Source: Rhodoplanes serenus
GTDB taxonomy: Bacteria > Pseudomonadota > Alphaproteobacteria > Rhizobiales > Xanthobacteraceae
DNA length: 64,000 bases
NCBI GenBank assembly: GCA_009720755.1
Contig: WNKV01000001.1
Span: 310,001-374,000, forward strand
Reading direction: 5' to 3'
The translations under genes were made by a program, and so were the position numbers. Position 1 is the stretch's first letter. Each line of letters opens with the position of its first letter. Positions 26,216-57,028 of this stretch are shown piece after piece. The notes beneath the pieces were generated by a model, which searched no databases, was not told where the DNA came from, and saw nothing but the letters and a program-made list of their open reading frames with translations.

Positions 26216-26229
26216 TTGACGGTCGTCAA
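26216..26229. promoter_or_regulatory. Fnr/FixK/NNR-type operator (TTGAC-N4-GTCAA)
   Basis: A perfect 5-4-5 palindrome, extended to CATTGAC/GTCAATG, sits between the divergent Hsp20 operon and hdeD. The pattern equals the binding site of Crp-Fnr superfamily regulators (Fnr TTGAT-N4-ATCAA, NNR TTGAC-N4-ATCAA). It is one of several copies in the island. Confidence 0.65.
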
Positions 26230-26401
26230 TGTGGCGCACCGAACGGAATGCCATCAATGATCAATGGCCAAGCGCATCAGGCTTGCATATTGTAGCACTT
26301 CGCCAGTCCGAGGGTGAGCCGGCTCACGATCACTCTAGCAACGGTCAAGTCTGGCAGCTTCGATGAGACTATTCGGCAGGTTGGTTTGAAAGGGCCTAAT
26401 C

Positions 26402-27016
26402 ATGAGCTACCAGAGTTTCGCAGAAAAAGACGTCAACTATGACGACTCCGGCCGTCGGCTGTTGTGCTCGTTGAGCACCAATTGGTGGGCATTTGTAATT
26501 CGCGGCGTTTTGGCGTTGATTCTCTCTGCTCTGGCATTCTGGATGCCAACACAGGCGTTGCTGGCGTTTACGCTCGTTTTTGGTGCTTTCTCGTTTGCCG
26601 ACGGTGTGTTGGTCTTGATCGCGGCAGTGTACAATGTCCGCAAAGGCGAGCGCTGGGGATGGCTTGCCTTCAGCGGCATCCTGGGCGTTCTAACTGGCAT
26701 TGTGGTGATCGTCTGGCCGCTCACGGCTACCTTGGCGCTCGCGTCGTTTTTATGGGCGAGCATTGCGGTCTGGTCGATTTTCACCGGAGCCTTTGAAATT
26801 TTCGCCGCTATACGCCTTCGTCATGAAATTAGGGGCGAAATCTGGCTAATTCTTAGCGGAGCGATTTCGGTTGTCCTCGGAGGCATTGTCGTTTGGCTCT
26901 TCTTGACCAAGCCTGTTGAAACTTTTGTGGCCGCCGGTTGGCTGCTGGCGACCTACGCTTTGTTTTCTGGCATCATTCTCACGATCCTGGGGCTGAGGCT
27001 GCGCCGACTGCGCTGA
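26402..27016 (+). CDS. hdeD: HdeD/DUF308 family inner-membrane protein
   Basis: The 204-residue protein has six predicted membrane segments in three pairs, with the DUF308 repeats [38 protein letters not shown] and [19 protein letters not shown]. HdeD is linked to acid resistance in E. coli and is a standard member of heat-resistance islands, but its molecular activity is unknown. It is divergent from the Hsp20 operon and probably transcribed with cbpA-cbpM-ftsH, which follow after 150 bases. Confidence 0.9.
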
Positions 27017-27167
27017 TGGATTAGGTCGAGCCCGCGGATCCCCGGAGTGCGCCGCTCGTCTGGCGGCTTTGCGTCGAGCCCCCGACCGTAGCAGAATTAG
27101 CTTGTGCGCATCGGCTCTGCAGACCGGGCCGGTCACGGAAAACCACATATTGGTTCGGGGGCCCCGA

Positions 27168-28079
27168 TTGAACGCAGATCCCTACAACGTCCTCGGCGTC
27201 AAGAAGGACGCTAGTCAGGACGACATTCAGAAGGCCTACCGCAAGCTTGCCAAGAAGCTGCACCCCGACCTCAACCCCGGCAACAAGCAGGCAGAGGAGC
27301 AATTCAAAGCCGTTTCAGCGGCTTACGATCTCCTGAGCGATCCGGAAAAGCGCGCGCGATTCGATCGTGGCGAGATCGACGCCTCGGGCCAGGAGCGGCC
27401 GCGGCAGCGCTACTATCGGGATTTTGCCGGCGGGGCGGCCGGTGACCATCCTTATGCATCATCAGAAGGATTTTCCGATTTCAGCGACGAGGGTGATCTT
27501 TTTTCCAGCCTGTTCGGCCGGGGCGGCCGGATGAACCTGAAGATGCGCGGGCAGGATGTGCATTACCGCCTGCCCGTCGAGTTCCTGGAGGCGGTCAATG
27601 GTGCGACGCGACGCATCACGCTCTCGGACGGCTCCACCGTCGATGTTACCGTCCCGCCCGGCGCGCGTGACGGCCAGCTTCTGCGGCTTGCCGGCAAGGG
27701 GGGCGCGGGGATCGGCGGCGGTCCGCCGGGCGACGCGTTTGTTGAAATTGTTGTGAAGCCACATCCGCTGTTCACGCGCAAAGATGACGATATCCATCTG
27801 GAATTGCCGGTCTCGCTCACCGAAGCCGTGCTGGGCGGTAAGATTTCCGTTCCCACACCGACGGGAGCCGTGTCGATGAACGTCCCAAAGGGCTCCAACA
27901 CGGGCACGGTTCTGCGCCTGCGCGGCAAGGGTGTCGCGCGTTCGAACGGGACGCGGGGGGACGAGTATGTGAAACTAAAGGTGGTCCTGCCGGAGAAGCC
28001 CGATCCCGAGTTGGAGAAGTTCGTTCAAAGTTGGACCGCTGGCAAAGCCCACGATCCCCGCCGCGGCATGGAGGCGTAG
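27168..28079 (+). CDS. cbpA: CbpA/DnaJ-type co-chaperone
   Basis: The roughly 303-residue J-domain protein has [23 protein letters not shown] followed by the essential HPD in LHPDLNPG, a Gly/Phe-rich linker ([16 protein letters not shown]) and two DnaJ C-terminal beta domains ([34 protein letters not shown]). There is no zinc-finger, so it is CbpA-like rather than DnaJ. It stimulates DnaK ATPase, and a dnaK copy lies in the same island. The start is uncertain: TTG 27168 fits the family, while an ATG-like start would be 33 codons earlier. Confidence 0.88.
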
Positions 28080-28430
28080 ATGCTCCATATCCCAGAATTT
28101 GTTTTGCGCTTGAAGGTGAGCCAGGACGTTGTCGAGACGTGGGTTGAGGAAGGATGGCTACGCCCGCAAAGAACCGACCAAGGACTGGCCTTTACGGAAA
28201 TGGACATGTCCCGCGCGCAAATGATTCGCGATTTGCGCGAAGATCTGGGCGTCAACGAAGAAGGCATCGCCATCGTTCTCGATCTGATCGACCAGATGCA
28301 CGGTCTCAGAAAGACGCTGCGCGAATTGTGCGAAGCCGTCGGCGTCCAGTCGCCCGAGCTGCAACAACGTATCCTTGCCGATATGCGCAGCCGGCGGCCG
28401 ATACCGATGAAAGGCCCGGAGACCCCATGA
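28080..28430 (+). CDS. cbpM: Chaperone modulator CbpM
   Basis: The 116-residue MerR-like helical protein has FVLRLKVSQDVVETWVEEGWLRP and MDMSRAQMIRDLREDLGVNEEGIAIVLDLIDQMHGLRKTLREL, both characteristic. CbpM binds the J-domain of CbpA and inhibits its action on DnaK. The ATG follows directly on the cbpA stop codon, indicating coupled expression and fixed stoichiometry. Confidence 0.9.
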   Translation: MLHIPEFVLRLKVSQDVVETWVEEGWLRPQRTDQGLAFTEMDMSRAQMIRDLREDLGVNEEGIAIVLDLIDQMHGLRKTLRELCEAVGVQSPELQQRILADMRSRRPIPMKGPETP

Positions 28431-28477
28431 GCACGCTCGATCCGTTACCATTTGGGACGCGCCATGCAGTTCAGTAA
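28427..28477 (+). CDS. Possible 16-codon coupling ORF before ftsH
   Basis: An ATG overlaps the cbpM stop (ATGA) and opens a 16-codon frame ([16 protein letters not shown]) that runs through the ftsH start codon and stops at 28477. Ribosomes ending here could restart at the ftsH ATG at 28464. It may equally be chance. Confidence 0.25.
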   Translation: MSTLDPLPFGTRHAVQ

Positions 28478-30344
28478 GGAAACGACTTTCAACATCTGGT
28501 ATGTGGTTGCGGCCGTTTTCGGCGTTCTGTTGATTCAGCATTTCTGGATCGAGAGCCAGCGCGTCGAGCCGATCCCCTATAGCGAATTCGAGCGTTATCT
28601 CGATGATGGAAAGATCAACAACATCGTCGTCGGCAATCAGTTCATCCGCGGTTACTTCAAAGAGCCGCGCGACGGTCGCACGCAATTTGTGACCACGCGG
28701 GTCGATCCGGCTTTGGCCCAGAAGCTTGCTGAAAAGGGCGTGCGCTTTACTGGGGCCGTCGAAAGCACCTTACTTCGCGATATCCTCTCATGGGTTCTGC
28801 CCATCCTGCTCTTCTTCGGCCTGTGGATGTTCGTGTTTCGGCGAGTAGCGGAGAAGCAGGGGCTGGGCAACTTTCTGCCGATCGGCAAGAGCAAGGCCAA
28901 GGTCTATGTCGAGAAAGATATCAAGGTCACGTTCAACGACGTCGCTGGCGTCGATGAAGCCAAGGAAGAACTGAAGGAGGTCGTCGCCTTCCTGCGGGCG
29001 CCGCAGGAATACGGCCGGCTTGGTGCGCGTATCCCGAAGGGCGTCCTTCTGGTGGGACCGCCGGGTACGGGCAAGACGTTGCTGGCACGCGCGATCGCGG
29101 GCGAGGCCGGCGTGCCGTTTTTATCGATCAACGGCTCCGAATTCGTGGAAATGTTCGTCGGCGTTGGTGCGGCGCGCGTGCGCGACCTGTTCGAGCAGGC
29201 AAGAAGCATGGCACCCTGCATCATTTTCATCGACGAGCTGGATGCGCTGGGCAAGGCGCGCGGCGCATTTCCGGCCGTCGGCGGTCACGACGAGCGCGAA
29301 CAGACGCTCAATCAGCTTCTGGTCGAGCTCGACGGCTTCGATCCGGCGCAGGGCATCGTACTTCTGGCCGCCACCAACCGCCCGGAAATCCTCGATCCCG
29401 CTCTGTTACGCGCCGGCCGCTTCGATCGACAGGTTCTCATCGACCGTCCCGACAAGACCGGCCGCGTCCAAATTCTGAAGGTGCACATGCGGAAAGTGAC
29501 CTTGGCCGAGGATGTCGACCCAGAAAAGATCGCAGCTCTGACCACGGGATTCACTGGTGCCGACCTCGCCAATCTGGTTAACGAGGCCGCCCTCCTGGCC
29601 ACCCGCCGGGGCGCGTCGGCGGTTGCCATGCAGGATTTTACGGCCGGCATCGAGCGCATCGTCGCCGGTCTGGAAAAGAAGAATCGGCTGCTCAACCCGA
29701 ACGAGCGAAAGGTTGTTGCCTATCACGAGATGGGCCATGCGCTGGTTGCACTCGCGATTTCCAAAACCGATGCCGTTCACAAGGTCTCGATCATTCCACG
29801 CGGGGTAGGCGCGCTTGGCTATACGATCCAGCGGCCGACCGAGGACCGCTATTTAATGACCCGCGACGAACTCGAAGCCAAAATCGCTGTTCTGTTGGGC
29901 GGGCGTGCTGCCGAGAAATTGGTGTTCGGAAAGCTTTCGACCGGCGCCGCCGACGATCTCGCCAAGGTGACCGACATTGCCCGCAATATGGTGGTGCGCT
30001 ACGGCATGGACGAAACCCTCGGCTATGTCGTGTACGAACCCGAACGGCCTTCCTTCTTGGGCAATGTGCCAGGACAGGCGCCGAGCGAGCGTCAATTCAG
30101 CGAAACGACGGCTGAAGCGATCGACGCTGCCGTGAAATCGATCGTCCATGCCGTGTTCGATCGGACAACCGTAATCCTTACCGCCAACCGTGATGTTCTG
30201 GAGCGCTGCGTCAAATCCTTGCTCGAAAAAGAGACGTTGAACGAAGACGAACTGCGCGAGCTTACCCGCGATCTGCGTTCGCCTGGCACTCAGGCCATGG
30301 CCGCGCCGGCCATGACGGCCGCCGCTCAAGCCGCGAGGGCATGA
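28464..30344 (+). CDS. ftsH: ATP-dependent zinc metalloprotease FtsH
   Basis: The 626-residue membrane AAA+ protease has two N-terminal membrane helices (about 10-27 and 105-125) around a periplasmic segment, Walker A GPPGTGKT near residue 200, Walker [12 protein letters not shown], the second region of homology ([19 protein letters not shown]) and the zinc site HEMGH near 421. It degrades misfolded membrane proteins and short-lived regulators. Bacteria of this group carry a housekeeping ftsH elsewhere, so this is an extra island copy, as in heat-resistance islands. The first ATG of the frame is 28452; 28464 fits the usual start. Confidence 0.95.
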
Positions 30345-30347
30345 CCG

Positions 30348-31086
30348 ATGTTTCCGATCCAAAATGGCGTTCCGCACCGCAGCGCACCTTTTGTCACCTG
30401 GAGTCTGATCGCCACAAACGTGGCCGTGTTCCTCTACCAAGTCAGTCTCTCGCCGCCAGCACTCGATCGATTTCTCGTGGACTACGCGCTTATTCCGGGA
30501 CGTTATTTCGTTCCTCTGCCTTTCGTGCCCGAACCCACGCTTTCGGATTATCTGCCGTTTGCAACCCAATATGTTCCTGCATGGCGGATGGCTGCATCTG
30601 ATCTTGAACATGTGGACCCTGTTTCTGTTCGGGCCGACGGTCGAAGATCGAATGGGAGGAGCCCGTTATTTGCTTTTCTATTTGTTTTGCGGGATCGCGG
30701 CCTCGACAGCGCATGCGTATTTTAATGCAACATCGTTTGTTCCGGCTTTGGGCGCCTCCGGTGCGATCGCCGGCGTCATCGGCGCCTTCGTCCGTCTCTT
30801 TCCGCTGGCGAATTTGATCGTCGTCATTCCGATCTTCTTCTTTCCGTTCTTTTTTGAAGTTCCGGCACTCTTGTTCGCCGGACTGTGGTTTTTGATGCAA
30901 TTCGTGCAAGGAACGATCGAACTTGTCAGTCCTTCGGCGGGGGGAGGTATCGCGTGGTGGGCGCATATCGGCGGATTCATCGCGGGGGTGTTGCTGACAT
31001 CCGTTTTGACGCAGCCGCGGCGAACTTATCGGAAATACTACCTTGACGAGGGAATCTATGGTTTCACGCCCAATGGCCGACGCTGA
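30348..31086 (+). pseudogene. Rhomboid-family intramembrane protease, frameshifted
   Basis: The first frame (30348 on) gives FPIQNGVPHRSAPFVTWSLI and a first membrane helix up to LSDYLPFAT. From about 30570 the match continues in the next frame with MFLHGGWLHLILNMWTLFLFGPTVEDRMG. The catalytic Ser lies in ALGASGAIAG and the His in AWWAHIGGF. Removing one C of the CCC at about 30569 would restore a roughly 245-residue protein. It is in the ftsH transcription unit, four bases downstream. If functional it would cleave membrane-spanning proteins. Confidence 0.82.
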
Positions 31087-31107
31087 GCAATCCGGAGATC
31101 TGCCTTC

Positions 31108-31938
31108 ATGAGCATCAACGACATCTTCTGGCTGTTCTTCATGTTCACTATGCTGCAGCCGTTGCTTCGGCAACGCATGCTGGAGGCCATGCGAACGCGA
31201 AAGATCGCGCAGATCGAGCGGGATCGGAACTCGCGCGTCATCCTGCTTGTGCATCGGCAAGAAACAATGCGGCTGCTCGGCTTCCCGCTGATGCGTTACA
31301 TCGACGTGAACGACTCCGAGGATGTGCTTCGCGCCATTCATATGACCGATGACGATGTGCCGCTCGACATCGTGCTGCACACGCCGGGCGGACTGGTGCT
31401 GGCTGCGTTGCAGATCGCGCGCGCCATCCGCGCGCACAAGGCGAAAGTGACCGTTTTCGTGCCTCATTACGCGATGTCCGGCGGTACGCTCATTGCACTC
31501 GCAGCCGATGAGATCGTCATGTGCCGGCACTCTGTGCTCGGCCCGATCGATCCGCAGCTCGGGCAATCGCCCGCGGCCTCTTTGCTTAAGGTGATCGAGC
31601 AGAAGCCGATTGCGGAGATCGACGACCAGACCCTGGTTCTTGCCGATGTCGGCCGCAAGGCGATTGCCCAGGTTAAAGCTGCTGCCAAGGAACTCCTGAC
31701 GGATAAAATGCCCGAGGATAAGGCCGAAGCGCTCGCTGAAAAATTATCGACCGGACAATGGACGCACGACTATCCGATTTCGCCGACGGAGGCCAAAGAC
31801 TTGGGCCTGCCTGTCAGCACGAACATGCCGGACGCAGTGCTCGAACTGATGACGCTTTATCCCCAGCCGGTACGGTCGCAAGGGGGCGGCGTCGAATATC
31901 TTCCGGTGCCGCGACAGAAGGAAGCGTTGCGAAAGTAA
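31108..31938 (+). CDS. SDH-family Clp-fold serine protease, membrane-anchored
   Basis: The 276-residue protein has an N-terminal membrane segment (INDIFWLFFMFTMLQPLL) and a Clp/crotonase fold similar to SppA and the SDH proteinase family: VPLDIVLHTPGGLVLAALQIARAI, the nucleophile Ser in YAMSGGTLIALAADEIVM, and VLGPIDPQLG downstream with the conserved Asp. Such proteins are thought to act in membrane protein quality control. It is the fourth protease-type gene of the island's rightward unit. Confidence 0.82.
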   Translation: MSINDIFWLFFMFTMLQPLLRQRMLEAMRTRKIAQIERDRNSRVILLVHRQETMRLLGFPLMRYIDVNDSEDVLRAIHMTDDDVPLDIVLHTPGGLVLAALQIARAIRAHKAKVTVFVPHYAMSGGTLIALAADEIVMCRHSVLGPIDPQLGQSPAASLLKVIEQKPIAEIDDQTLVLADVGRKAIAQVKAAAKELLTDKMPEDKAEALAEKLSTGQWTHDYPISPTEAKDLGLPVSTNMPDAVLELMTLYPQPVRSQGGGVEYLPVPRQKEALRK

Positions 31939-31991
31939 CTTAAACAGGCGTGGTCAGAGAAAAGCCGGTGGCGCAGCGGACGGAGTCAACT

Positions 31992-32480
31992 ATGAAATTG
32001 CTCGAACATTTGGACATCAAGACCACGCAATGGGAGGTCGCCAGCGTCTACGAGAAATTCGAGCAAGTGGTCGTTCTCATTCTGACCGGCTTGATCATCG
32101 TCGTTATCGCCTCCGCGGTCTGGCATCTGGCAATTAAGATCCTATTCGGCCTCGTCCTGGCCAGTTTTGATCCGACAGATCCTGCTGTTTTTCAGACAGT
32201 GTTTGGCATGATGTTTACCGTCATCATCGCCTTGGAATTCAAACATTCCATCCTAATCATGGTGAAGCGGGAACAAAGCGTCGTGCAGGTGCGCACGGTC
32301 GTCCTGATTGCCATGCTCGCGGTGATCCGGAAATTCATCATCATCGATTTGTCATCCGCTACGGCCAATCAAATGTTTGCGCTGGCGGCGGGCGTCATCG
32401 CTCTTGGCGCCGTCTATTGGCTCGTGCGCGATCAGGACCGAAAGGCCGAGATCGCAGAGCGTGAGAGGCCGGCAACATGA
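31992..32480 (+). CDS. psiE: PsiE-like membrane protein
   Basis: The 162-residue protein has four hydrophobic segments and matches the phosphate-starvation-inducible PsiE family: FEQVVVLILTGLIIVVIASAVW, VFQTVFGMMFTVIIALEFKHSI and VVQVRTVVLIAMLAVIRKFIIIDL. Its function is unknown, though it is a regular member of stress-tolerance islands. ATG 31992 has GGAG seven bases upstream. The stop overlaps the thioredoxin start (ATGA). Confidence 0.88.
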   Translation: MKLLEHLDIKTTQWEVASVYEKFEQVVVLILTGLIIVVIASAVWHLAIKILFGLVLASFDPTDPAVFQTVFGMMFTVIIALEFKHSILIMVKREQSVVQVRTVVLIAMLAVIRKFIIIDLSSATANQMFALAAGVIALGAVYWLVRDQDRKAEIAERERPAT

Positions 32481-32917
32481 GTCAACACGTCACGCATATC
32501 GTTTGTCCTCATTGCGATGCCGTCAACCGCATCCCTGCGGACAAGCCGGCCAAAGAGGCCAAATGCGGCCGCTGTCATCGTGCGCTCTTCGACGGTCATC
32601 CGGCGGAGGTCATCGGCGAACGGCTGGAGAAGCATATCAAGTCAAATGAGATACCGGTCGTCGTCGATTTCTGGGCGCCGTGGTGCGGACCATGCCGCAT
32701 GATGGCGCCGGCCTACGAGCGCACTGCGGGACAACTGGAGCCGAACGCGCGGTTGCTGAAGTTGAACACCGAGAATGATCCAAGCGCTGCGGAGCGTTAC
32801 GACATAAGATCGATTCCCACCCTGATTATGTTTCGTAACGGCCAGATCGTAGATCGCGTGAGCGGCGCCATGGATGAACGCCGCCTTCAGCAATGGATCG
32901 CGTCGCACGCGCATTGA
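32477..32917 (+). CDS. trxC: Thioredoxin 2 (zinc-binding)
   Basis: The 146-residue protein has an N-terminal zinc ribbon with CPHC and CGRC, then a thioredoxin domain with the redox site WCGPC and cis-Pro in SIPTLIMF. It reduces disulfides in the cytoplasm and is typically induced by oxidative stress. It overlaps psiE by four bases. Confidence 0.95.
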   Translation: MSQHVTHIVCPHCDAVNRIPADKPAKEAKCGRCHRALFDGHPAEVIGERLEKHIKSNEIPVVVDFWAPWCGPCRMMAPAYERTAGQLEPNARLLKLNTENDPSAAERYDIRSIPTLIMFRNGQIVDRVSGAMDERRLQQWIASHAH

Positions 32918-33124
32918 GTGCCTTAACGCGCTAAAAATGAGAGTATGCAAATGGCAAGGAAACCTGAACCGGATCCTCCTGAAACCGATGACGATCCTGT
33001 CCTTGAAGCGGACATCGAGTCGTTTCCCGCCAGCGATCCGCCGGGCTGGATTCCGGCGCGAATCGGTCCTGCGGTGCCCATCCCGGCCGAAAAGTTGTCA
33101 AGCAAGCGACTTCAGGAGGTAACC

Positions 33125-33607
33125 ATGCATGACACCCGAATCGATTTGCCATCCAACGTTCGTGGAACCGCCATCGGATTGCTTCAGGCACGATTGACGG
33201 ACGCCGTCGACCTCGCAAGCCAGGCCAAACAGGCTCATTGGAACGTCAGGGGACCAAGCTTTATAGCGCTGCACGAACTGTTCGATCAGGTCGCAACGAC
33301 CGTGCGTGAGCATGCAGACATAATTGCCGAACGAATCGTAGCGCTCGGCGGCACGGCAGAGGGCACGGCGCGCGTTGCCGCCAAACAATCGACGCTTAAG
33401 GAATACCCACTCGAGATTATCGATGGGCGCGCCCATGTTTCCGCACTTGCTGATGCACTCGCTGCGTTTGGCGCGAATGTCCGTCGCAACATCGACGAGG
33501 CGGTTGAGGCGGGCGACCAGGGGACGGCCGACTTATTCACTGAGGTCTCCAGAAGTATCGACAAAACATTGTGGTTTGTCGAGGCCCATGGTCAGGCCAA
33601 GGCGTGA
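33125..33607 (+). CDS. dps: Dps-family DNA-binding ferritin, with possible N-terminal extension
   Basis: The 160-residue four-helix protein has the Dps ferroxidase pattern: QAKQAHWNVRGPSFIALHELFDQV and REHADIIAERIVALGG. It stores iron, removes peroxide and coats DNA. AGGAGGT five bases before 33125 marks a strong start. The same frame is open back to ATGs at 32945 and 32951, adding about 60 acidic, Pro-rich residues with ESFPASDPPGW, a motif I associate with separate small proteins. Either two products or a true fusion is possible. An inverted repeat (33625-33632/33648-33655) follows the stop. Confidence 0.88.
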   Translation: MHDTRIDLPSNVRGTAIGLLQARLTDAVDLASQAKQAHWNVRGPSFIALHELFDQVATTVREHADIIAERIVALGGTAEGTARVAAKQSTLKEYPLEIIDGRAHVSALADALAAFGANVRRNIDEAVEAGDQGTADLFTEVSRSIDKTLWFVEAHGQAKA

Positions 33608-33729
33608 TCTTTCGTGAAAAGACTGCAGGCGCTGAAGGAGACACCGTGCGCCTGCCCCTTGCGGCTCAGCGCCGCCAACAGGTGATATGACTGTTTTCGT
33701 TCAACCGGCCAGCGGAGACGCCCCTGTCC

Positions 33730-34653: not shown

Positions 34654-34690
34654 GAAGACAGCACCGAAGCGGTGTTAGGGGGTCAGATCC

Positions 34691-37467: not shown

Positions 37468-37472
37468 CTCGC

Positions 37473-46036: not shown

Positions 46037-46042
46037 TACTTC

Positions 46043-48156: not shown

Positions 48157-48170
48157 TTGACGCTAATCAA
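48157..48170. promoter_or_regulatory. NNR/Fnr-type operator (TTGAC-N4-ATCAA)
   Basis: An exact match to the TTGAC-N4-ATCAA class lies 60 bases before the leftward BON gene at 48096. A TATGCT hexamer (48140-48135, leftward) could serve as -10, though its spacing is shorter than classical class II. Confidence 0.6.
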
Positions 48171-48360
48171 TTTCATGATGGGCGCCGTTTTTACAAATCA
48201 GCGACGGGCGTTTGCCCCGCGGGGTCGAGCGCATCATTTGATTGGCGGCCATTCACTGTTCGGTCCGATCTCGCCCCAATCGCCCCAACTGACGCGCGCA
48301 GTTTGATCAAAATCGCTCCCGCCCCGTTGTCTCGGGACGGGAGCGACAAAGAAGCGCACA

Positions 48361-49023: not shown

Positions 49024-49228
49024 GGTGGCGTCTCCACGTTGAACCGGACAGGATTGTCCCATACGTTTTTTCACACAGCTTCGCAGCCAACCGGCTCTCC
49101 TGGTCAATATTATGCGCTCGAATAGGTGGATGATTTGCCACATGTCGTGACACCGCGGCCGGATCGCGGCGATCATGCAACTCATTCCTGGTGAGCACGG
49201 GCGCTGCCGCTGCATAGGATTAGATGTC

Positions 49229-50230
49229 ATGGCAGGCATGCTTTCGGCCGCGCTACCTGAAGAGGTAAGGACCGGGGCACGCAAGAGGCGGCAACCAAGT
49301 TGGATAGCGCCGATGCTGGCGAGCTTGACGCAAGAGCGATTTTCCAGGGAGGACTGGCTCTTCGAACCGAAATGGGACGGCGAGCGCTGCCTGGTGTTCA
49401 GTCACGGCACCGAATTGGAATTGTTGTCACGTAACAGGACACGTCTGAATGAAAGATATCCCGAGCTTGCACCGGCATTCAATCAGTGTGCGATGAACTC
49501 TTTCATTGCTGATGGTGAAATCGTTGCATTCACGGGCGGCATAACGAGCTTCATGCAGCTCCCAAAGCGCATGCAGGTCGAGAATCCATCTCGCTCCTTG
49601 TTGCGACAGGTGCCGGTCTATATGTACCTGTTCGACCTTCTGTACTGGAACGGTTACGATTTGCGGCGCGTACCCTTTCGGCATCGTAAAGCACTGCTTC
49701 ACGACGCATTCCCATTCGGGCGCCGATTGAGATTCACCGCGCATCGTGAGAAGGATGGCGAAGCCTATTACCGCGAAGCGTGCCGCAAGGGCTGGGAAGG
49801 GATTATCGCTAAGAATGGCAACAGCCAATATGTCTCAAAACGAACGCGAGACTGGCTGAAGTTCAAGTGTGAGCAAGGTCAGGAGTTTGTTGTCGGCGGA
49901 TACACAGAGCCCCAGGGACATCGGATTGGCTTCGGGGCTTTGCTGCTAGGAGTGTACCGAGACGAGCGACTTCATTATGCGGGAAAGGTTGGAACCGGAT
50001 TCGATAGCGCGATGTTGAAAGTTCTTGCGCAGCGACTTCGAAGTATCGAAACGAATGTCTCGCCATTTGCCGACTACGATATCCCGCAACGAGGCGTCTA
50101 CTGGGTCAAACCGGAGCTCGTCGCACAGATTGCCTTCACGGAATGGACCAAGGATGGCCGGCTCCGCCATCCACGGTTTCGCGGTTTGCGTGACGACAAG
50201 CTGCCGTCAGAAGTGATACGGGAGGGTTGA
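49229..50230 (+). CDS. ligD: ATP-dependent DNA ligase, LigD ligase domain as separate protein
   Basis: The 333-residue protein has the adenylation site Lys in EPKWDGERC (KxDG), the nucleotidyltransferase motifs (ADGEIVAFTG; YMYLFDLLYWNG; WEGIIAKNG; RTRDWLKFKC) and an OB-fold (EFVVGGYTEPQGHR ... GVYWVKPELVAQIAFTEWT). In most bacteria this domain is fused with polymerase and phosphoesterase in LigD for non-homologous end joining; here these are three adjacent genes. The start is one of two close ATGs (49229, 49238). Confidence 0.92.
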   Translation: MAGMLSAALPEEVRTGARKRRQPSWIAPMLASLTQERFSREDWLFEPKWDGERCLVFSHGTELELLSRNRTRLNERYPELAPAFNQCAMNSFIADGEIVAFTGGITSFMQLPKRMQVENPSRSLLRQVPVYMYLFDLLYWNGYDLRRVPFRHRKALLHDAFPFGRRLRFTAHREKDGEAYYREACRKGWEGIIAKNGNSQYVSKRTRDWLKFKCEQGQEFVVGGYTEPQGHRIGFGALLLGVYRDERLHYAGKVGTGFDSAMLKVLAQRLRSIETNVSPFADYDIPQRGVYWVKPELVAQIAFTEWTKDGRLRHPRFRGLRDDKLPSEVIREG

Positions 50231-51184
50231 GTGGGCGCGAGCGAATTGCGATTGCGTGTTGAAGGACACGAAATAGCGGTTACAAACCCGGCCAAGTTGC
50301 TGTTTTCGGACGATCATATCAGCAAGTACGAGCTCATTGACTATTACCGGTGGGTGGCACCGCGGATGCTTCCGTTTCTGCGTGATCGGCCAATTGCCTT
50401 GGAGCGATATCCGAATAGCATCGGACAAGTTGGGTTTTTTCAGAAGTCTGTGCCCTCCTATTTTCCTGACTGGGTCAAAACGATTGAAGTTGAAAAGAAA
50501 CAAGGAGGCGTAACCCGTCATGTGATCTGCAATAACGGGGCCGTGCTGGTGTATTTGGCAAATCAGGCATGCATCACGCCACATATATGGATCAGCCGGG
50601 TCGACAAGCTCGAATGCCCAGATCAAATGGTGTTTGACCTCGACCCTTCAGCCGATGCGTTCGACTGGGTTAGGGCAGCGGCATTAGCTCTCAATGAACT
50701 CCTTCAAGAATTGACGCTGTCGGCCTATGTCAAATCGACCGGTTCGCGAGGATTGCATGTCATCGTGCCTCTTAAGCGGACTGAGTCATTCGAGTCAGTG
50801 CGCGCCTTCGCTCGCGCGGTCGCGATGCGTGTTGTCATGGAGGAACCAAGTCAGCGAACTCTGCAGCAGCGCACTGGCTCGCGGCATGGACGCGTGTTCT
50901 TCGACATCAACCGCAATGCTTACGCACAGACCGTTGCGCCGCCGTATGCGGTGAGAGCGCGGCCCAACGCTTCGTTGTCGATTCCGCTCTTCTGGGAAGA
51001 GGTGCGCTCCAAAACATTGCGGCCGGATGGCGTAACTCTTCGAGACATACGCAAAAGGCTCGATGGAATGATTGATCCATGGGCTGACTTTTGGCGCCGC
51101 GCAAGCGCACTCGGGAGTGCACGGCGTAAATTGGAGTTGCTCGGTGTCTCTGTCAGAGTACCGCAAAAGGCGAAATTTCGCTAA
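50231..51184 (+). CDS. ligD: LigD polymerase/primase domain as separate protein
   Basis: The 317-residue protein of the archaeo-eukaryotic primase type has VTNPAKLLFSDDHISKYELIDYY at the start, ALERYPNSIGQVGFFQK, the metal-binding VFDLDPSADAFDW and the SxH-type STGSRGLHVIVPLKR. It fills gaps and adds ribonucleotides at breaks in end joining. The GTG start at 50231 directly follows the ligase stop. Confidence 0.93.
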   Translation: MGASELRLRVEGHEIAVTNPAKLLFSDDHISKYELIDYYRWVAPRMLPFLRDRPIALERYPNSIGQVGFFQKSVPSYFPDWVKTIEVEKKQGGVTRHVICNNGAVLVYLANQACITPHIWISRVDKLECPDQMVFDLDPSADAFDWVRAAALALNELLQELTLSAYVKSTGSRGLHVIVPLKRTESFESVRAFARAVAMRVVMEEPSQRTLQQRTGSRHGRVFFDINRNAYAQTVAPPYAVRARPNASLSIPLFWEEVRSKTLRPDGVTLRDIRKRLDGMIDPWADFWRRASALGSARRKLELLGVSVRVPQKAKFR

Positions 51185-51746
51185 AACGCCAGAACCGGCG
51201 GGGCGTTTGCGCGCCCGGCGCCGCGGGCGCCTATTTGTTGTACAGAAGCATTGTGTAAGCCGTCTGCATTACGATTTCAGGCTTGAGGTCGGCGGTGTGT
51301 TGGCATCATGGGCGATCCCCAAGGGCCCCTCGATGAACCCCAGACAGAAACGTCTTGCCCTCAGAACTGAAGATCATCCTCTGGAATATGCGACATTTGA
51401 AGGCGTAATCCCGGAGGGTGAATATGGTGCCGGCGTAGTGATGGTATGGGATAAAGGCGACTATCGCCCGCAACACGACAAGTCGATTGAGGTTCAGTTG
51501 GCTCGCGGCAAAATTGATCTTGTGCTTAGCGGCGTCAAGCTCCGGGGCGGATTTACATTGATACAGATTGCCGTCCGGTCCGGCAGACCTAATCAAGGAG
51601 ATGCTTGGCTGCTGATTAAGCAAAAGGACGAATTCGCCGCCACTTCGTGGAATATCGAACAGGCGGCTCCTGATCGCTCAGTGATAACCGGACGCACTCT
51701 TGAGGAAATTGCGGAGGGTCGTTCGCGCCGACAGCGGGGACTTTGA
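51144..51746 (+). CDS. ligD: LigD 3'-phosphoesterase domain as separate protein
   Basis: The 200-residue protein has the phosphoesterase signature with His and Asp ligands in VVQKHCVSRLHYDFRLE, then WAIPKGPSMNPRQKRLA, TEDHPLEYATFEGVIPEGEYGAG, and DKGDY. It trims 3' ends before ligation. The GTG at 51144, with GGAG upstream, overlaps the polymerase gene by 41 bases. The order LIG-POL-PE differs from the fused PE-LIG-POL of Pseudomonas. No Ku gene is present in the window. Confidence 0.88.
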   Translation: MSLSEYRKRRNFAKTPEPAGRLRARRRGRLFVVQKHCVSRLHYDFRLEVGGVLASWAIPKGPSMNPRQKRLALRTEDHPLEYATFEGVIPEGEYGAGVVMVWDKGDYRPQHDKSIEVQLARGKIDLVLSGVKLRGGFTLIQIAVRSGRPNQGDAWLLIKQKDEFAATSWNIEQAAPDRSVITGRTLEEIAEGRSRRQRGL

Positions 51747-51817
51747 CCTGCCAAATATGTAGGTTGCAGTGGGGGTTGGCTAGCCCCCAAGACGAGCGGA
51801 ACCGGCGGACCCCCGTC

Positions 51818-51831
51818 TTGACAGTCATCAA
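51818..51831. promoter_or_regulatory. NNR/Fnr-type operator (TTGAC-N4-ATCAA) before usp
   Basis: An exact 5-4-5 match lies 80 bases before the universal stress protein start. A CATCAT hexamer (51855-51860) is a possible -10 close to class II spacing. Confidence 0.6.
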
Positions 51832-51910: not shown

Positions 51911-52744
51911 ATGATCAAAGATGTATTCACTTGGCTCGACGGAAGCGTCTCGGACGAAATTCGTATGAGCGCCGCTCTCGATATCGTCCGGCAATTCGAA
52001 GGTCATGCGACAGGCTTGTTTTTTAGCGTATTACCTCCACCTCCAGCACCCATTGAAGGCGACCTCACAGGCGCACTTGGCATCGCGGCCCTGATGGATC
52101 AGGCGCGTGCCTCAGGCGATAAAATGGAAAAGACCATTGTCGACCGGTTAAAGCGGTACGGCGTGGCCATCGAGCTTCGCAGGTTCGACGTTCTAAGATC
52201 AGACATTGCAGATGTTGCCGCTCGCGAAGCGAGGTGCGCCGACGCCTTCGTCTTGATCAGACCAAACGGCTCGCAAGATCCCGATCGCCTCGTCGAGGGC
52301 ATTCTGTTTGGATCAGGCCGGCATATTTTGTTGGTCCCCGAAGTCGAGCGCCCGAAATCCATTGTTTTCAACCGGATTTTGGTCGCGTGGAACGCGAGCC
52401 GCGAATCGACGCGGGCTGTGGCCGAAGCAATGCCCTATTTGCGGATAGCGAAGGACGTCTCGGTCGTGATGGTTACCGAAGAGCCTCGCAAACAGATGGA
52501 AGGATCCGTGGGTGACGCGATCAAAAAGCATTTGAAGCATCACGGCGTTGCGGCGGAACTCCATCGGGTCAAATGCCGGAACGGTAATGTAGGCGAAACA
52601 TTGCTTGCGGAAGCCAAGAAAGCGAGAAGTGACCTGATCGTTCTAGGTGGATACGGCCATACTCGCCTTCGCGAGATGCTTCTCGGCGGTGTAACCTATC
52701 ATTTGATGCACAATTCGCCGGTGCCGCTTCTCATGGCGCACTAA
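51911..52744 (+). CDS. Universal stress protein, two-domain
   Basis: The 277-residue protein has a diverged first Usp fold and a clear second one (ILVAWNASRESTRAVAEAMPYL; end motif LGGYGHTRLREMLLGGVTYHLMHNSPVPLLM with the ATP-binding G-x-x-G-x9-G-T pattern). Usp proteins help survival in starvation and low oxygen. Start 51911 is favoured; the open frame goes back to 51743 but would cover the operator. It converges on phaC. Confidence 0.88.
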   Translation: MIKDVFTWLDGSVSDEIRMSAALDIVRQFEGHATGLFFSVLPPPPAPIEGDLTGALGIAALMDQARASGDKMEKTIVDRLKRYGVAIELRRFDVLRSDIADVAAREARCADAFVLIRPNGSQDPDRLVEGILFGSGRHILLVPEVERPKSIVFNRILVAWNASRESTRAVAEAMPYLRIAKDVSVVMVTEEPRKQMEGSVGDAIKKHLKHHGVAAELHRVKCRNGNVGETLLAEAKKARSDLIVLGGYGHTRLREMLLGGVTYHLMHNSPVPLLMAH

Positions 52745-52823: not shown

Positions 52824-54662
52824 CTAGCGTTCAAGTACATAGGTGCCGGGCGCATCGGCAATTGGCGCAAGGCCGGTTGCCGGGTTCCCGAGTGGAGGCG
52901 GCGCGATCCGCCCGGTCGAGTGACGAGCCAGCCAGGACTGCCACACAGGCCACCAGCTCCCTTCAAAGTGCGGTGCGGTAGTCCGCCATGTCTCAGGATC
53001 AGTATCGCGGTCGGCTGAATTCTTTGTCGCCATCTGGAAACTGCGATTCTTATGGCCAGGTTCACTGACGATACCGGCATTGTGTCCGCCTGTCGTAAGC
53101 ACAAACGTAACATCCGTATCGGTCAAATGGTGGAGTTTAAACACAGACCTCCAAGGTGCGACATGATCTTTTTCCGTTCCGACTGCGAAAATCGGAACGA
53201 GAATGTCCGTCAGGAAGATCGTCCGACCGCCAACTTTATAGCGGCCGCTGACGAGATCATTATCCAGATAAAGATGGCGGAGATACTCAGAATGCATGCG
53301 ATAAGGCAGTCGGGTCGCGTCGGCGTTCCATGCCATTAGGTCGTTCATCGGCGGCCTTACGCCCAATAGATAGCTCCGCAGCGCCCGCGACCAGATCAAA
53401 TCGTTCGATCGGAGCAGATGGAACGCACCGGCCATCTGATGCGTGTCGAGATAGCCTTGCTCCCATGTTATGCCCTCAAGAAACGCAACTTCGCTCTCGC
53501 TGATGAACAATCCTAGCTCGCCAGGATCTGTGAAATCGACCAGCGTTGCCAGCAATGTGATGCTTGCGAGCTGATTGATCCCGCTTCGCGTCATCGCGGC
53601 CGCAGCGATCGCCAATAATGTTCCGCCAAGGCAATAGCCGACCGCGTGCGTTTTGCGATGATCGCAGATTTCGTCGATCGCCCTGAGTGCGGCGACTATG
53701 CCAAGTTCGCGATAGTCGTCCATACCAAGATCGCGATCCGATCCGGCCGGATTTTTCCATGAGATCATAAAAACCGTGTGCCCGCGCTCGACCAAATATC
53801 GAACAAGGGAATTGTGCGGGGAAAGATCGAGGATATAGTATTTCATGATCCATGCCGGGACGATGAGTACGGATTCGGCATAGACATCATCTGTAGTCGG
53901 CGAATATTGAATGAGCTCAATTAGGCGATTGCGATAGACCACTTTTCCCGGCGTAACGGCGACGTTCACGCCCACTTTGAATTGCTCGGCTCCGACCGGA
54001 GGCCTGCCGTCGACCAAACGCAGCCAATCCTCATGGAAATGCTGCATCCCATTAACCAGATTCAATCCGCCCTGCTGAATTGTAGCAGCGCTAACCTCCG
54101 GATTGAGCCATGGAATATTTGAACGCGATATAACGTCAAGGAGCTGGCGAGTAACGAATTCGACCACCCGCTCGTGATGTTTGTCGACTCCGTCAATGTC
54201 GGTGGTGGCGTTGTGCCACCATTGCTGGTGCAACAAGAAGTTCTGATAAATCAATTTGTGCGGCCACTGTTGCCATTCCTCGGCAACGAAGCGTTCGTCC
54301 TGCGGAAGGGGATCGATACAGGGCGAAGGGTTGGATGCACTGATACATCGCATCCAATACAACCCGATTCTGCCCGCCTTCCGCCACGCCTTTTCGACAA
54401 GCTGTGCCTGTTTCCCCGGCGACATCCAAAGATGCCCGAACCAATCAAAGTACGCTTCCGATAACCCAACCGGACTTATGCCGGCGGTAAGCCGCCCAAT
54501 ACGAGCTTTAAAGACACGGTCGATACTTCGCCAGGCAACATCAGATGCTCGATCCTTGTCGTGGCTTGCATCCGCAGGCCGTGTGTGAAAATCCGCCTGG
54601 ACAGGCTCCGTTGTCACCCGAGCTTCACCCTCAAGCGAAGGCGTTTTACTCGTGTCGTTCAT
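52824..54662 (-). CDS. phaC: Poly(3-hydroxyalkanoate) synthase, class I type
   Basis: The 612-residue alpha/beta-hydrolase polymerase has the N-terminal PhaC block (DWLRLVDGRPPVGAEQFKVGVNVAVTPGKVVYRN), VPAWIMKYYILDLSPHNSLV, the active-site Cys in GYCLGGTL near residue 340, Asp in GTEKDHVAPW and His in TTGGHNAGIV. It polymerises hydroxyacyl-CoA into storage granules. No phaA, phaB or phasin is nearby. Such a lone copy with stress genes is typical of low-oxygen regulons. A half Fnr-like site lies at 54676-54686 just upstream. Confidence 0.92.
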   Translation of the reverse strand: MNDTSKTPSLEGEARVTTEPVQADFHTRPADASHDKDRASDVAWRSIDRVFKARIGRLTAGISPVGLSEAYFDWFGHLWMSPGKQAQLVEKAWRKAGRIGLYWMRCISASNPSPCIDPLPQDERFVAEEWQQWPHKLIYQNFLLHQQWWHNATTDIDGVDKHHERVVEFVTRQLLDVISRSNIPWLNPEVSAATIQQGGLNLVNGMQHFHEDWLRLVDGRPPVGAEQFKVGVNVAVTPGKVVYRNRLIELIQYSPTTDDVYAESVLIVPAWIMKYYILDLSPHNSLVRYLVERGHTVFMISWKNPAGSDRDLGMDDYRELGIVAALRAIDEICDHRKTHAVGYCLGGTLLAIAAAAMTRSGINQLASITLLATLVDFTDPGELGLFISESEVAFLEGITWEQGYLDTHQMAGAFHLLRSNDLIWSRALRSYLLGVRPPMNDLMAWNADATRLPYRMHSEYLRHLYLDNDLVSGRYKVGGRTIFLTDILVPIFAVGTEKDHVAPWRSVFKLHHLTDTDVTFVLTTGGHNAGIVSEPGHKNRSFQMATKNSADRDTDPETWRTTAPHFEGSWWPVWQSWLARHSTGRIAPPPLGNPATGLAPIADAPGTYVLER

Positions 54663-54795
54663 GGCTAGCGCCCTAACAATCGTCAAGTCCTGGTTATCAA
54701 GGATGACTATAGCGACATATTCTCATTGGGACGATCCGAAGCGAGGCAATATTGATAGATGAAAATAGCATCATTCTGTCTATTTGATCGTACTT

Positions 54796-55344
54796 TCAAT
54801 TGTATTTTGAAATCCATTCAGCGTAACGATTCATGAAAGTCTGAAGGAAGCTTTTTGTTGTTTCGTTGTTGATGTTGCCGTGCTCATCGATCAAACCCTG
54901 GGAGAAATGAATATACACTTCTGGCTGTCCGAGCGTCGGAACGTCAAGATAACCAAGCACACTGCGTAGATGGGCTTGAGCTACCGCGGTGCCGATCGCG
55001 CCTATCGAAGCACCCGCTATTCCGGCTGGCTTGCCAGCCCACAAATTTTTTCCATATGGCCGCGATACCCAATCTAGAACATTCTTAAGCGCGGTCGGAA
55101 GCGAGCGATTATGCTCAGGTGTCACGAACAGAAGGGCATTTGCTGCGGTGACTTGCAATTTCGCGCGCGATACCGATTCGGGCGGCGATTGATCGAGATC
55201 TTGATTGTATAGCGGCAGATCATCGATTCGGACGAAGTCGCAATCGAAGTCGCTCGGTGCGAGTTTTACCAAAGCCTTTGCGAGCTTCAGATTGATCGAA
55301 TCCTTGCGGATACTTCCAACAATGATTGCAACTTTGCGAGCCAT
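54796..55344 (-). CDS. NADPH-dependent FMN reductase-like flavoprotein
   Basis: The 182-residue flavodoxin-fold protein has the phosphate-binding GSIRKDSIN loop, FVTPEHNRSLPTALKNVLDWVSRP and GIAGASIGAIGTAVAQAHLR, as in chromate/azo/quinone reductases of the SsuE/YieF group. It probably reduces quinones or metals with NAD(P)H to limit oxidative stress. An operator and -10 box in class II arrangement precede it (55442-55482). Confidence 0.9.
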   Translation of the reverse strand: MARKVAIIVGSIRKDSINLKLAKALVKLAPSDFDCDFVRIDDLPLYNQDLDQSPPESVSRAKLQVTAANALLFVTPEHNRSLPTALKNVLDWVSRPYGKNLWAGKPAGIAGASIGAIGTAVAQAHLRSVLGYLDVPTLGQPEVYIHFSQGLIDEHGNINNETTKSFLQTFMNRYAEWISKYN

Positions 55345-55441: not shown

Positions 55442-55482
55442 ACTATATGACGCGGAGCAAGCATTGAATTGACAATAGTCAA
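55442..55482 (-). promoter_or_regulatory. Class II Fnr-type promoter of FMN reductase gene
   Basis: TTGAC-N4-GTCAA at 55469-55482 is a perfect palindrome. Leftward, TATAGT occupies 55447-55442. The distance between the two centres is 31 bases, which places the operator at about -41.5, the classical position for activation by Fnr/FixK proteins. Confidence 0.72.
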
Positions 55483-55530: not shown

Positions 55531-56187
55531 TCAAGTGTCACTTCTGTCATCGCCGAGCCACGGGTCAGGATTGATGGAAGACAGTGGAACGTCGGCCAAG
55601 GTCTTCTTCAGTTCCACCTCGTGAACGTGAACGTGCTCCGCGCCACACCGGCGCATGATTTCCTGCGCCTTATGTTCTGCTTCTGGGTCGCGAACGCGCA
55701 CCAATATGACTAGACCGCTCATCTTCAACTCGTCCTCCAAATCAATACTTTCCCCGGTACTGACAAGGCGATTTTTGATGATCTTGGCCAGCCCAGCCGC
55801 AGCAGCACCGCCGGCAAGCGCCGCAGCAGCTGCGGCAGCCAAAGCTCCACCTGATGCCACGATTGGGAGCACGGCTCCCACGGTGCCAATCGTTATCAGG
55901 GTTCCGAATACCAAGGCGGTCGCGGTGGTTTCATCATCCGGTTTGATCAACTCACGTCGGGGGGCATCGGGATGCTCCGCCGCAACGACCGGCGCGGAAT
56001 AGTACGCTCCCAGGGCGCGCATGACCGTCATTCGGCTCGCCATAAGGTCGATATCGCCTCGGTCGAATCCGGATCGAGTTAGATCATCCACGAGCCGATC
56101 AAGGCCTTCGCGGTTCTTAACCGTTCCCACCACCTCTCGAACACGGATCGTGTCTAGAACTTCATCCGCGGAACGATTATCGGTCAT
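55531..56187 (-). CDS. Hypothetical protein with glycine/alanine membrane hairpin
   Basis: The 218-residue protein has a soluble N-part (GTVKNREGLDRLVDDLTRSGFDRGDIDLMASR), a long Ala/Gly-rich hydrophobic segment at about 90-135 likely forming a membrane hairpin, and a C-part with MSGLVILVRVRDPEAEHKAQEIMRRCGAEHVHVHEVEL, an ACT-like or DUF1269-type fold. This layout is like general-stress proteins of the YflT/GsiB-neighbour type, but I cannot name a function. An operator with one mismatch lies 80 bases upstream. Confidence 0.7.
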   Translation of the reverse strand: MTDNRSADEVLDTIRVREVVGTVKNREGLDRLVDDLTRSGFDRGDIDLMASRMTVMRALGAYYSAPVVAAEHPDAPRRELIKPDDETTATALVFGTLITIGTVGAVLPIVASGGALAAAAAAALAGGAAAAGLAKIIKNRLVSTGESIDLEDELKMSGLVILVRVRDPEAEHKAQEIMRRCGAEHVHVHEVELKKTLADVPLSSINPDPWLGDDRSDT

Positions 56188-56266
56188 GAGATTACGTCCT
56201 GGTTATACTACAATTGGCCATCTCGGCCTGGCCGTACCAAGGATGTTCGGTTTGGCACATACCGCC

Positions 56267-56280
56267 ATGACAACGATCAA
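56267..56280. promoter_or_regulatory. Fnr-type operator, one mismatch (ATGAC-N4-ATCAA)
   Basis: Nine of ten defined bases match. It lies 80 bases upstream of the leftward gene starting at 56187, the same distance as the usp operator. A CATCCT hexamer (leftward 56245-56240) is a possible -10 at class II spacing. Confidence 0.45.
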
Positions 56281-56356
56281 TATTGAGTCGCCTCAGCCTA
56301 AAGAAACAGCCGCAACAAATTGTCAGCGACGTGAATTGAGCTGAGGTTCGTGCCGC

Positions 56357-56842
56357 TCAATGCAACCGTGTGCGCTGATCGGCAGATTGCAAGACAAGCG
56401 CCTTGTATATCAAGGCAAAACCCTGCATCGCAAGCAGATACTGGCGCAACCGCGTCGCGAAATTGTGCGCCATCTGAAGCAGCTCCGGATTGCTGCGTTC
56501 AAATTCCGCAATCGCTTCCATCGTGAACGCTTCAGTGCCTTGTGTGTCGATTTCCCGCACCAGCCGCGCACGCGTTTCCTCGCTGACAGCAGGAAGCGGT
56601 GATAGATCGCCTGACGTCGGCAATCCCGGGACCAGCAGACGGAAGAATATCGCAAATCCCAACATGACCTTCTGCGAATCGCCGACGTCTGCGGCACACC
56701 GCGTCGCCATATCCAAAATTTCCGGATTGTGCCGCTTGAGATGCGCTACGACTTCTGCCGTACAGACATCCGGCCCGCGTGTGTCGAACTCGCGGGCAAT
56801 TAACTCTCGAGTTTCTTCGGTGACACGCGGAAGCATGCTCAT
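56357..56842 (-). CDS. Hypothetical protein with two copies of a ~50-residue domain
   Basis: The 161-residue protein contains an internal duplication: LPRVTEETRELIAREFDT...EVVAHLKRHNPEILDMA (about 4-47) and LPAVSEETRARLVREIDT...EAIAEFERSNPELLQMA (about 82-125). Each copy is followed by a hydrophobic stretch (KVMLGFAIFFRLLVPG; LLAMQGFALIYKALV) that could lie in or on the membrane. I know no family. It shares an upstream region and operator with the rightward BON gene. Confidence 0.65.
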   Translation of the reverse strand: MSMLPRVTEETRELIAREFDTRGPDVCTAEVVAHLKRHNPEILDMATRCAADVGDSQKVMLGFAIFFRLLVPGLPTSGDLSPLPAVSEETRARLVREIDTQGTEAFTMEAIAEFERSNPELLQMAHNFATRLRQYLLAMQGFALIYKALVLQSADQRTRLH

Positions 56843-56987
56843 CTCGAATCGAGTTCGCCTTCAGTCTCCGTTCGCTAGCGCAAGCATTCGCTGTCTTGCA
56901 ATGCACATCGTCGCGTTTTCGACAGCGCGACATTGCGCACCCATCGTGGAATGAAGACAAGTAAATCATTCCCAACCCGGCGAAAAA

Positions 56988-57028
56988 TTGACGATTGTCA
57001 GGGCTGATCCCTGACCTTTGACTATTCA
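56988..57028 (+). promoter_or_regulatory. Fnr-type operator with -10 box before third BON gene
   Basis: TTGAC-N4-GTCAG (56988-57001, one mismatch) is followed rightwards by TATTCA (57023-57028) with 31 bases between centres, the class II spacing. The site lies in the divergent region between the duplicated-domain protein and the BON gene and could serve both. Confidence 0.55.

Follow-up and report, generated by a model that had tools for sequence, protein, structure and literature searches.

The subject here is a 64-kb stretch of Rhodoplanes serenus DNA, C11:310001-374000 (the window, from a genome of 5.50 Mb in 51 contigs), and a 14-bp sequence, TTGAY-N4-RTCAA, which recurs in it ahead of genes for chaperones, proteases, and other stress proteins. 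These repeats are read here as anaerobox operators, i.e., as sites from which a FixK-like protein of the Crp/Fnr superfamily would, as oxygen declines, activate a proteostasis island that probably was acquired, a reading to which, judging from sequence comparison, we assign a probability of roughly three in four. The sites are clustered, lie mostly between genes, recur before the same gene classes in other bacteria, co-occur with a particular group of regulators, and, as pooled, show a preferred distance to -10-like hexamers. Binding of the sites, activation from them, and oxygen as the signal would be the likely biology behind that pattern, and related islands in other bacteria look to be wired alike. 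Mobile stress-tolerance islands usually are discussed in terms of resistance to heat, chlorine, or pressure. If the reading is true, then the natural trigger of the island, at least in this lineage, would be instead oxygen limitation, a directly testable prediction and one which joins three literatures, i.e., those on the transmissible locus of stress tolerance (tLST), on the lxa locus, and on rhizobial FixK.

Six exact matches are found in the window, starting at 26216, 37962, 40847, 48157, 51818, and 55469, versus a mean of 0.17 in dinucleotide shuffles of the window, none of 100 of which reaches six. A first-pass annotation of this DNA had listed five of these, correctly as to position and as to placement outside of genes, but had missed 37962, which lies within a MarC-family gene. 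Its estimate of one exact match per 262 kb of random sequence is arithmetically correct, and its judgment that the sites are far above chance is borne out. The whole-genome scan that it had proposed yields 31 exact sites, versus 1 for the reversed pattern, which served as control. Eleven of those 31 fall within C11:336216-391677 (55.5 kb), with the other 20 elsewhere, and 28 lie outside of genes as predicted by a home-made gene caller. The noncoding fraction is 19% across all sources of this genome-wide placement count and 20% in the island. Over the island stretch, C11:335000-394000, ten of 11 exact sites are intergenic and one is coding, in DNA that is ~80% coding. Equal frequency within coding regions, a concern that the annotation had raised, thus is not seen.

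With up to one mismatch allowed, 15 matches are present in the window (nine of them one-mismatch sites) versus a shuffle mean of 4.88, so that a single one-mismatch site is weak evidence. Two such sites, at 56267 and 56988, had been placed correctly and outside of genes by the annotation; by the same numbers, they are supported by position more than by sequence. Indeed, seven of the 11 one-mismatch sites in the island stretch are coding.

Chance or base composition might be thought to generate the palindrome, i.e., from low-GC intergenic DNA or from the TTGAC -35 boxes of constitutive promoters. TTGAC does resemble the -35 consensus, as does the site ahead of crp1 (below), and the GC content of the island is 57.6% versus 70.9% for its flank. 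A second-order Markov model of the island's intergenic DNA (11,757 bases) nevertheless predicts 0.115 sites where ten are observed, with a maximum of two in 400 runs. The reversed pattern, beyond its single genomic occurrence, is found in none of the 80 related loci considered below, and in other genomes, too, the operator is found ahead of the same classes of gene. Chance or composition as the source of the sites was rejected by the shuffles, the reversed-pattern control, and the Markov model, and is considered here to be very improbable. The sites conform to what is called an anaerobox: a 14-bp palindrome, TTGA-N6-TCAA, found in promoter regions.

As to individual sites, none of which is assigned a strand except at 55469, the first, TTGACGGTCGTCAA (26216-26229), lies between hsp20a (minus strand) and hdeD1 (plus). 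The second intergenic site, TTGATATCCGTCAA (40847-40860), separates a LOG-type gene (minus) from dnaK-clpB-grpE (plus). Next come TTGACGCTAATCAA (48157-48170), its centre 67.5 bp away from where BON1 (minus) is predicted to start, with hsp20e downstream, and TTGACAGTCATCAA (51818-51831), for which the corresponding distance to usp (plus) is 86.5 bp. The operator at 55469-55482, before the FMN reductase gene, is accompanied by a -10-like TATAGT with its centre 31 bp away, making for a class II-like promoter on the minus strand (55442-55482). The one-mismatch operators are found before a 218-amino-acid gene (56267-56280; gene at 55531-56187, minus) and between a 161-amino-acid gene (minus) and BON3 (plus) (56988-57001), the latter with a TATTCA of weak -10 score 31 bp off on the BON3 side. 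The motif within the MarC-family gene (37473-38081), TTGACGGGCGTCAA at 37962-37975, probably is a chance or non-functional occurrence.

The claim that such sites stand upstream of most island operons is fair for roughly 20-57 kb of the window but fails over the remainder. Even with one mismatch allowed, no site is found at 57002-64000, where yfdX1 and yfdX2 reside, nor at 48171-51817, so that BON2 (48361-49023) and the LigD genes (49175-51746) possess no operator of their own. Past the window, exact sites precede crp1 (by 68.5 bp, relative to its predicted start) and a small open reading frame, one separates BON4 from an SDR gene, and a pair 60 bp apart (L036:17604-17677) precedes a truncated BON gene, those at the small frame and at the truncated gene having been placed by eye.

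Three Crp/Fnr genes, as recognized with profile PF13545, are located in the island just past the window (C11:381.2-384.7 kb). Crp1 is intact at 243 amino acids, the start of Crp2 is uncertain, and Crp3 (L036:9971-10702) has an in-frame premature stop in its sensor domain and thus is probably a pseudogene, leaving Crp1 and Crp2 as candidate regulators. All three, along with two chromosomal Crp/Fnr proteins, carry the recognition helix E-T-[VI]-S-R, so the genome does hold the kind of regulator upon which the annotation's proposal depends. We take the E-T-V-S-R form to be of the FNR/FixK type. Within an 86-row alignment, the E, T, and R of this helix are invariant and the S is present in 81 rows. 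Crp1-3 further display the Crp-type helix-turn-helix with E..SR recognition helix of the FixK sub-family. The closest solved structure (PDB) to Crp1 is FixK2 (4i2o, E 4e-25, versus E 4e-7 for FNR), and the best NCBIfam model for Crp1-3 is FixK (NF050806), at 90, 85, and 96 bits, below the cut-off of 300, which the chromosomal FixK-like protein fails to reach as well (229).

Three of the FNR cysteine ligands are spaced C-X2-C-X5..7-C near the N-terminus, a pattern absent from Crp1 and from trimmed Crp2 and Crp3, with none seen by eye in the longer frames of the latter two. The FNR sub-family is described as employing four cysteines as ligands of a [4Fe-4S] cluster (PMC2908626), and an FNR-type iron-sulfur regulator was rejected for Crp1 as well as, so far as their frames are readable, for Crp2 and Crp3. 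As FixK is the best model but is matched far below cut-off, and as there is no FNR-type cysteine pattern, Crp1-3 are described here as FixK-like rather than as FixK. Crp1 has a serine at the position of C183 of native FixK2 (4i2o alignment); the solved FixK2 is a C183S variant (PMC9104804). Cysteines 44, 73, and 86 of Crp1 are common to its paralogues at equivalent sensor-domain positions. Beyond these paralogues, a single row of the 86-row alignment matches, and at just one of the positions. The three cysteines may constitute a redox sensor in their own right.

As envisaged, oxygen limitation would raise the amount of active FixK-like protein, i.e., of chromosomal FixK via FixLJ, plus island Crp1 or Crp2. 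A dimer of such a protein would bind the anaeroboxes of the island and, at part of the promoters, would contact RNA polymerase from approximately -41.5 (class II). Operons encoding chaperones, protease, BON proteins, Usp, and flavoprotein would then be switched on as oxygen falls.

To find related loci, similarity to the Crps was used, with the best 80 of 395 relatives retained, and 'stress island' is our own label for a locus with at least three proteostasis-type relatives. A shared regulator group is therefore partly built into the comparison. One of the islands, G540:C374, was reached by a BON query as well. In one of these Crp searches, all three matches below E 1e-60 outside of the R. serenus genome are to stress islands, and three weaker matches that were examined (G540:C393, G619:C186, G616) are not. 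At least one exact site is present in 65 of the 80 loci.

Seven other stress islands carry a Crp of the same group as Crp1-3, and six of these have exact operators, 20 in total. These are an Azospirillum brasilense plasmid (L186, NZ_CP059451.1; six sites, one overlapping the opening codons of a gene annotated as usp), a metagenome-assembled genome (MAG) named Gammaproteobacteria (L048; five), G540:C374 (L235; three), Rhizobiales Ga0077545 (L050; two), G442 (L240; two, one inside a called open reading frame ahead of the Crp homology), and G571 (L241; two). The seventh, a Caulobacteraceae MAG (L117), has none. Operators in these islands are found, among others, at hsp20, hdeD, BON, dnaK, dnaJ, usp, and trxC genes. 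L050 holds the very 14-mer of 26216, TTGACGGTCGTCAA, in the interval from dnaJ to hsp20abc, and L235 holds it ahead of dnaK. In all seven, a FixJ-like response regulator gene adjoins the Crp gene or is separated from it by one gene. By Pfam this regulator is PAS-REC-GerE in L050, L117, and L186 and REC-GerE in L048; in L235, L240, and L241 it is a FixJ relative by BLAST. A PAS-type or FixL-like kinase is found as well in L048, L240, and L241.

In a 53-row Crp tree, the ten stress-island rows (Crp1-3 plus the seven) require one label change, versus a mean of 9.4 for shuffled labels, none of 500 shuffles being as low. They form a group separate from chromosomal FixK, with support of 96/81 without L117 and 66/40 with it; in an earlier tree, two Roseomonadaceae Crps, whose loci hold no more than one Hsp20 relative, stood beside this group. 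We would give even odds to these being a distinct proteostasis island of alphaproteobacteria, plus the one MAG labelled gammaproteobacterial, in which FixJ-like regulator, island-specific Crp/Fnr, and anaeroboxes travel with Hsp20, DnaK-ClpB, HdeD, and BON, and in which chaperones would serve a low-oxygen or dormancy response rather than one to heat. R. serenus would then have lost the response regulator beside its Crps, with the Crp having multiplied to three copies.

Who reads the sites in R. serenus is a somewhat different question. FixL-like, FixJ-like, and FixK-like genes stand side by side on the chromosome (C2:210922-214014), and a second set of kinase, regulator, and Crp is found at C6. 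Given the exact site upstream of Crp1, this chromosomal FixL-FixJ-FixK-like cascade could feed into the island's own regulators. Alternatively, and as a tentative but real possibility, the island may have been adopted into the host's microoxic regulon, with its sites read mainly by chromosomal FixK or by the C6 Crp/Fnr protein and with Crp1-3 decaying or binding elsewhere. The C2 genes are in keeping with that, as are the stop codon of Crp3, the uncertain start of Crp2, and the occurrence of the same motif before chromosomal respiratory genes such as COX1. On the other hand, the island Crps belong to the stress-island regulator group, apart from chromosomal FixK, and Crp1 is both intact and conserved in its recognition helix.

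Among the chromosomal exact sites, one (C6:96739) precedes a COX1-type oxidase gene by 86.5 bp, and others are by genes for a class I/II aminotransferase, an NnrS and cytochrome c pair, a Usp, and a multihaem cytochrome. Ten neighbouring proteins were tested, of which those six are respiratory, haem-related, or stress proteins and the other four consist of a glycosyl hydrolase, a histidine kinase, and two without Pfam match. Unrelated genes thus do adjoin sites as well. Taken together, the checks set by the annotation do not overturn its reading. The idea that the genes by the C6 site are nitrogen-oxide genes was rejected, the neighbour tested being COX1.

NnrS is linked to nitric oxide (NO), and one chromosomal exact site does lie by its gene, so to speak a point in favor of a signal consisting of NO or nitrogen oxides, as with regulators of the DNR or NnrR type, rather than of oxygen. 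Nor is the signal readable from the operator, as the target sequences of FNR, FixK, and DNR are described as virtually identical (PMC2908626), a point which favors NO sensing and host FixK alike. Low oxygen nonetheless is preferred over NO because the Crp of the related islands is accompanied by a FixJ-like response regulator, two of these islands apparently having a FixL-like kinase as well by BLAST, and another of the chromosomal sites is by the COX1-type gene. NO as signal is thus viewed as unlikely. The annotation's suggestion of a low-oxygen or NO regulon, that is, stands, with its first half favored.

Class II activators, which are centred at -41.5, predict a spacing of 31-32 bp from operator to -10. 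This was examined with exact sites outside of genes and with a gene start within 350 bp, i.e., 66 oriented flanks at 44 sites from the R. serenus island, its chromosome, and L186, L048, L050, L235, L240, L241, and L190. L190 was included although without a known Crp of the group, L117 adds no site, and L192 (A. argentinense) was excluded as nearly duplicating L186. Strong -10-like hexamers occur eight times at 31 bp from the operator centre and seven times at 32 bp, versus 0.65 on average and never more than two at other offsets (outside of 30-33), with the -10 weights, threshold, and distances having been chosen after the first examples were seen. Fourteen of the 44 sites possess such a hexamer at 31-32 bp, or, by flank, 3/11 in this island, 8/31 in related loci, and 4/24 on the chromosome. 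A strict version of the pattern, with 21 bp to TANNNT, occurs at five places genome-wide and at none in the control.

In the pooled set, the operator thus stands at the distance expected of a class II activator. That position counts against operators which mainly repress, i.e., with Crp lying over the -35 and shutting stress genes until the regulator leaves, even if the crp1 site does overlap a -35-like element and auto-repression of fixK2 is reported (PMC9104804). Repression as the main role seems improbable.

A number of observations pull in the other direction from FixK-like activation of the island as oxygen falls. Of the five exact matches in the window that are intergenic, 55469 alone shows a strong -10 spaced as for class II; for the remaining four it is weak or absent. 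The crp1 site, by eye, overlaps a -35/-10-like pair (TTGATC, 17 bp, TAGAAT), so repression or plain promoter use fits there as well. Crp1 is 51% identical to Crp2 and 25-38% identical to most relatives, and no FixLJ-type genes are found beside the island Crps of R. serenus. Many of the 80 loci are Bradyrhizobium usp/acetyl-CoA ligase clusters without proteostasis operons, so that the motif is not specific to stress islands. Of the 20 related-island sites, L186 7574 and L240 9589 fall within called or annotated genes, and L048 10612 and L241 660 run across gene ends. L117, with its Crp and PAS-REC-GerE regulator, has no site even with one mismatch. The hsp20abc loci L188, L189, and L191 have no exact site (L191 has two intergenic one-mismatch sites). 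Within ~1.5 kb to each side, exact sites are found at 7/27 Hsp20a relatives and 5/12 BON relatives, and the expectation of an operator at every such relative thus fails. Lastly, the E. coli tLST (L187, 23 kb), which served as the comparison without sites and in which there is no exact operator, is not wholly free of such sequences, as it contains one TTGA-N6-TCAA, TTGAGTCGCATCAA (L187:5523-5536), one mismatch from the pattern and 184 bp before the first hsp20 gene.

The tLST is relevant here as the window holds a fragment of it, of enterobacterial type (59210-61280, minus strand), consisting of yfdX2, yfdX1, and a 47-amino-acid sHsp20-GI remnant, with proteins 88-94% identical to those of the E. 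coli tLST. YfdX1 is at 87.5% and YfdX2 at 89.8% (59210-61114), with the remnant at 93.6%. Near-identity is limited to this part; the other identities are 67% for FtsH, 62% for HdeD, 47% for Trx, and 44% for KefB. The island resembles the tLST in possessing yfdX1-yfdX2-hdeD, ftsH, trx, kefB, and hsp20 relatives, spread over ~40 kb and in a different order, but is unlike it in having ClpB rather than ClpK, i.e., the sole ClpK match in the 122 kb examined, with neither ClpK nor ClpG as such being found, is the ClpB gene, at 47%. Alphaproteobacteria which carry mostly the homeostasis part of the tLST are on record, and the expression section of the same review names Cpx and growth phase, with the words FNR and oxygen absent from its text (PMC8290217). 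Membership in the tLST as explanation for the sites is not supported, there being no exact site in the E. coli tLST and none up to one mismatch at the yfdX fragment.

Other likenesses are found elsewhere. The FixK2 regulon of Bradyrhizobium diazoefficiens shares with the island a 14-bp box and the placement of boxes before Hsp20, usp, and dnaJ genes. Its box is given as TTGA/C-N6-T/GCAA and is listed for hspC2 (Hsp20), usp, groEL5, nitroreductase-dnaJ, and host-attachment genes, with fixK2 itself induced by FixLJ (PMC9104804), and microoxia induces Hsp20, Usp, and DnaJ in that organism (PMC6515984). Those genes, however, are part of the cell's microoxic regulon, whereas in R. serenus one is dealing with a low-GC island by an integrase, with dnaK-clpB-grpE, ftsH, lon, hdeD, and Crp copies of its own. 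In Rhizobium leguminosarum, the gene for RLV_1399, a small heat shock protein, is described as having an anaerobox (TTGA-n6-TCAA) whose centre is at -87.5 relative to the start codon, along with ~50-fold microaerobic induction that requires FnrN (PMC11784457), but this is a single gene rather than an island. The lxa of Burkholderia cenocepacia is a low-oxygen-induced, 50-gene locus encoding six Usps, a heat shock protein, and a BON protein, for which the Crp/Fnr protein BCAM0049 has been proposed as oxygen-sensing regulator (PMC9104464, PMC6127331, PMC9733578). Its likeness to the R. serenus island, which has one Usp in the window versus six, is drawn from description. The operator is thus known already, as is control by FixK of genes for Hsp20, Usp, and DnaJ; what is different here is an island with its own FixK-like cassette. 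Among papers listed in searches of the open-licence literature, a scope outside of which most subscription papers fall, titles and abstract openings gave no proteostasis island with both such a cassette and anaeroboxes.

Turning to the island itself, GC content changes at ~16 kb into the window, 66-73% giving way to 54-62%, beside a tRNA-Gly gene (14720-14793) and, ~0.5 kb from it, a tyrosine integrase gene (15322-16677, plus). It is back at 64% or above from ~C11:395,000, so the low-GC island extends past the window. Conjugation-type genes (CagX, VirB8, TrbL, T2SSE, coupling protein), possibly of the same element, follow from that point. No distal att repeat of the tRNA-Gly end is found within the 122 kb examined to mark the far end of the island, so that acquisition, though probable, is deduced. 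Megablast of window 21001-46000 gave no near copy on plasmids; the 20 rows listed, of 51 records, match in ftsH, dnaK, or clpB only.

By Pfam, the genes of the island include a minus-strand run of hsp20a-hsp20b-hsp20c-degP-like-M16-M16 (20596-26123). A plus-strand run follows (26402-39852), of hdeD1-dnaJ-cbpM-like-ftsH-rhomboid-SDH protease-psiE-trx2-ferritin-S30AE/sigma r4-hsp20d-lon-marC-kefB-like, and then dnaK-clpB-grpE-NDUS4 (40959-46507, plus), hsp20e and BON1 (46797-48096, minus), usp (51911-52744, plus), phaC and FMN reductase genes (52824-55344, minus), and BON3 (57108-57710, plus). In total, five Hsp20, a DegP-like, two M16, two HdeD-type (DUF308), a DnaJ, a MerR-type CbpM-like, FtsH, rhomboid, SDH protease, PsiE, thioredoxin, ferritin, Lon, MarC, KefB-like, DnaK, ClpB, GrpE, NDUS4, three BON, LigD parts, Usp, PhaC, FMN reductase, and two YfdX proteins are recognized, with a fourth BON gene recognized by similarity.

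Two further features may be mentioned. An unusual fusion is encoded at 33730-34653, in which an S30AE (ribosome-hibernation) domain at the N-terminus is joined to a sigma-70 region 4-like domain at the C-terminus. A cation-ATPase N-terminal fragment (57830-58318) lies ~10 kb from an 825-amino-acid P-type ATPase body (L036:4131-6608, past the window), with an IS110 transposase gene between the two, and together these look like a split or duplicated gene.

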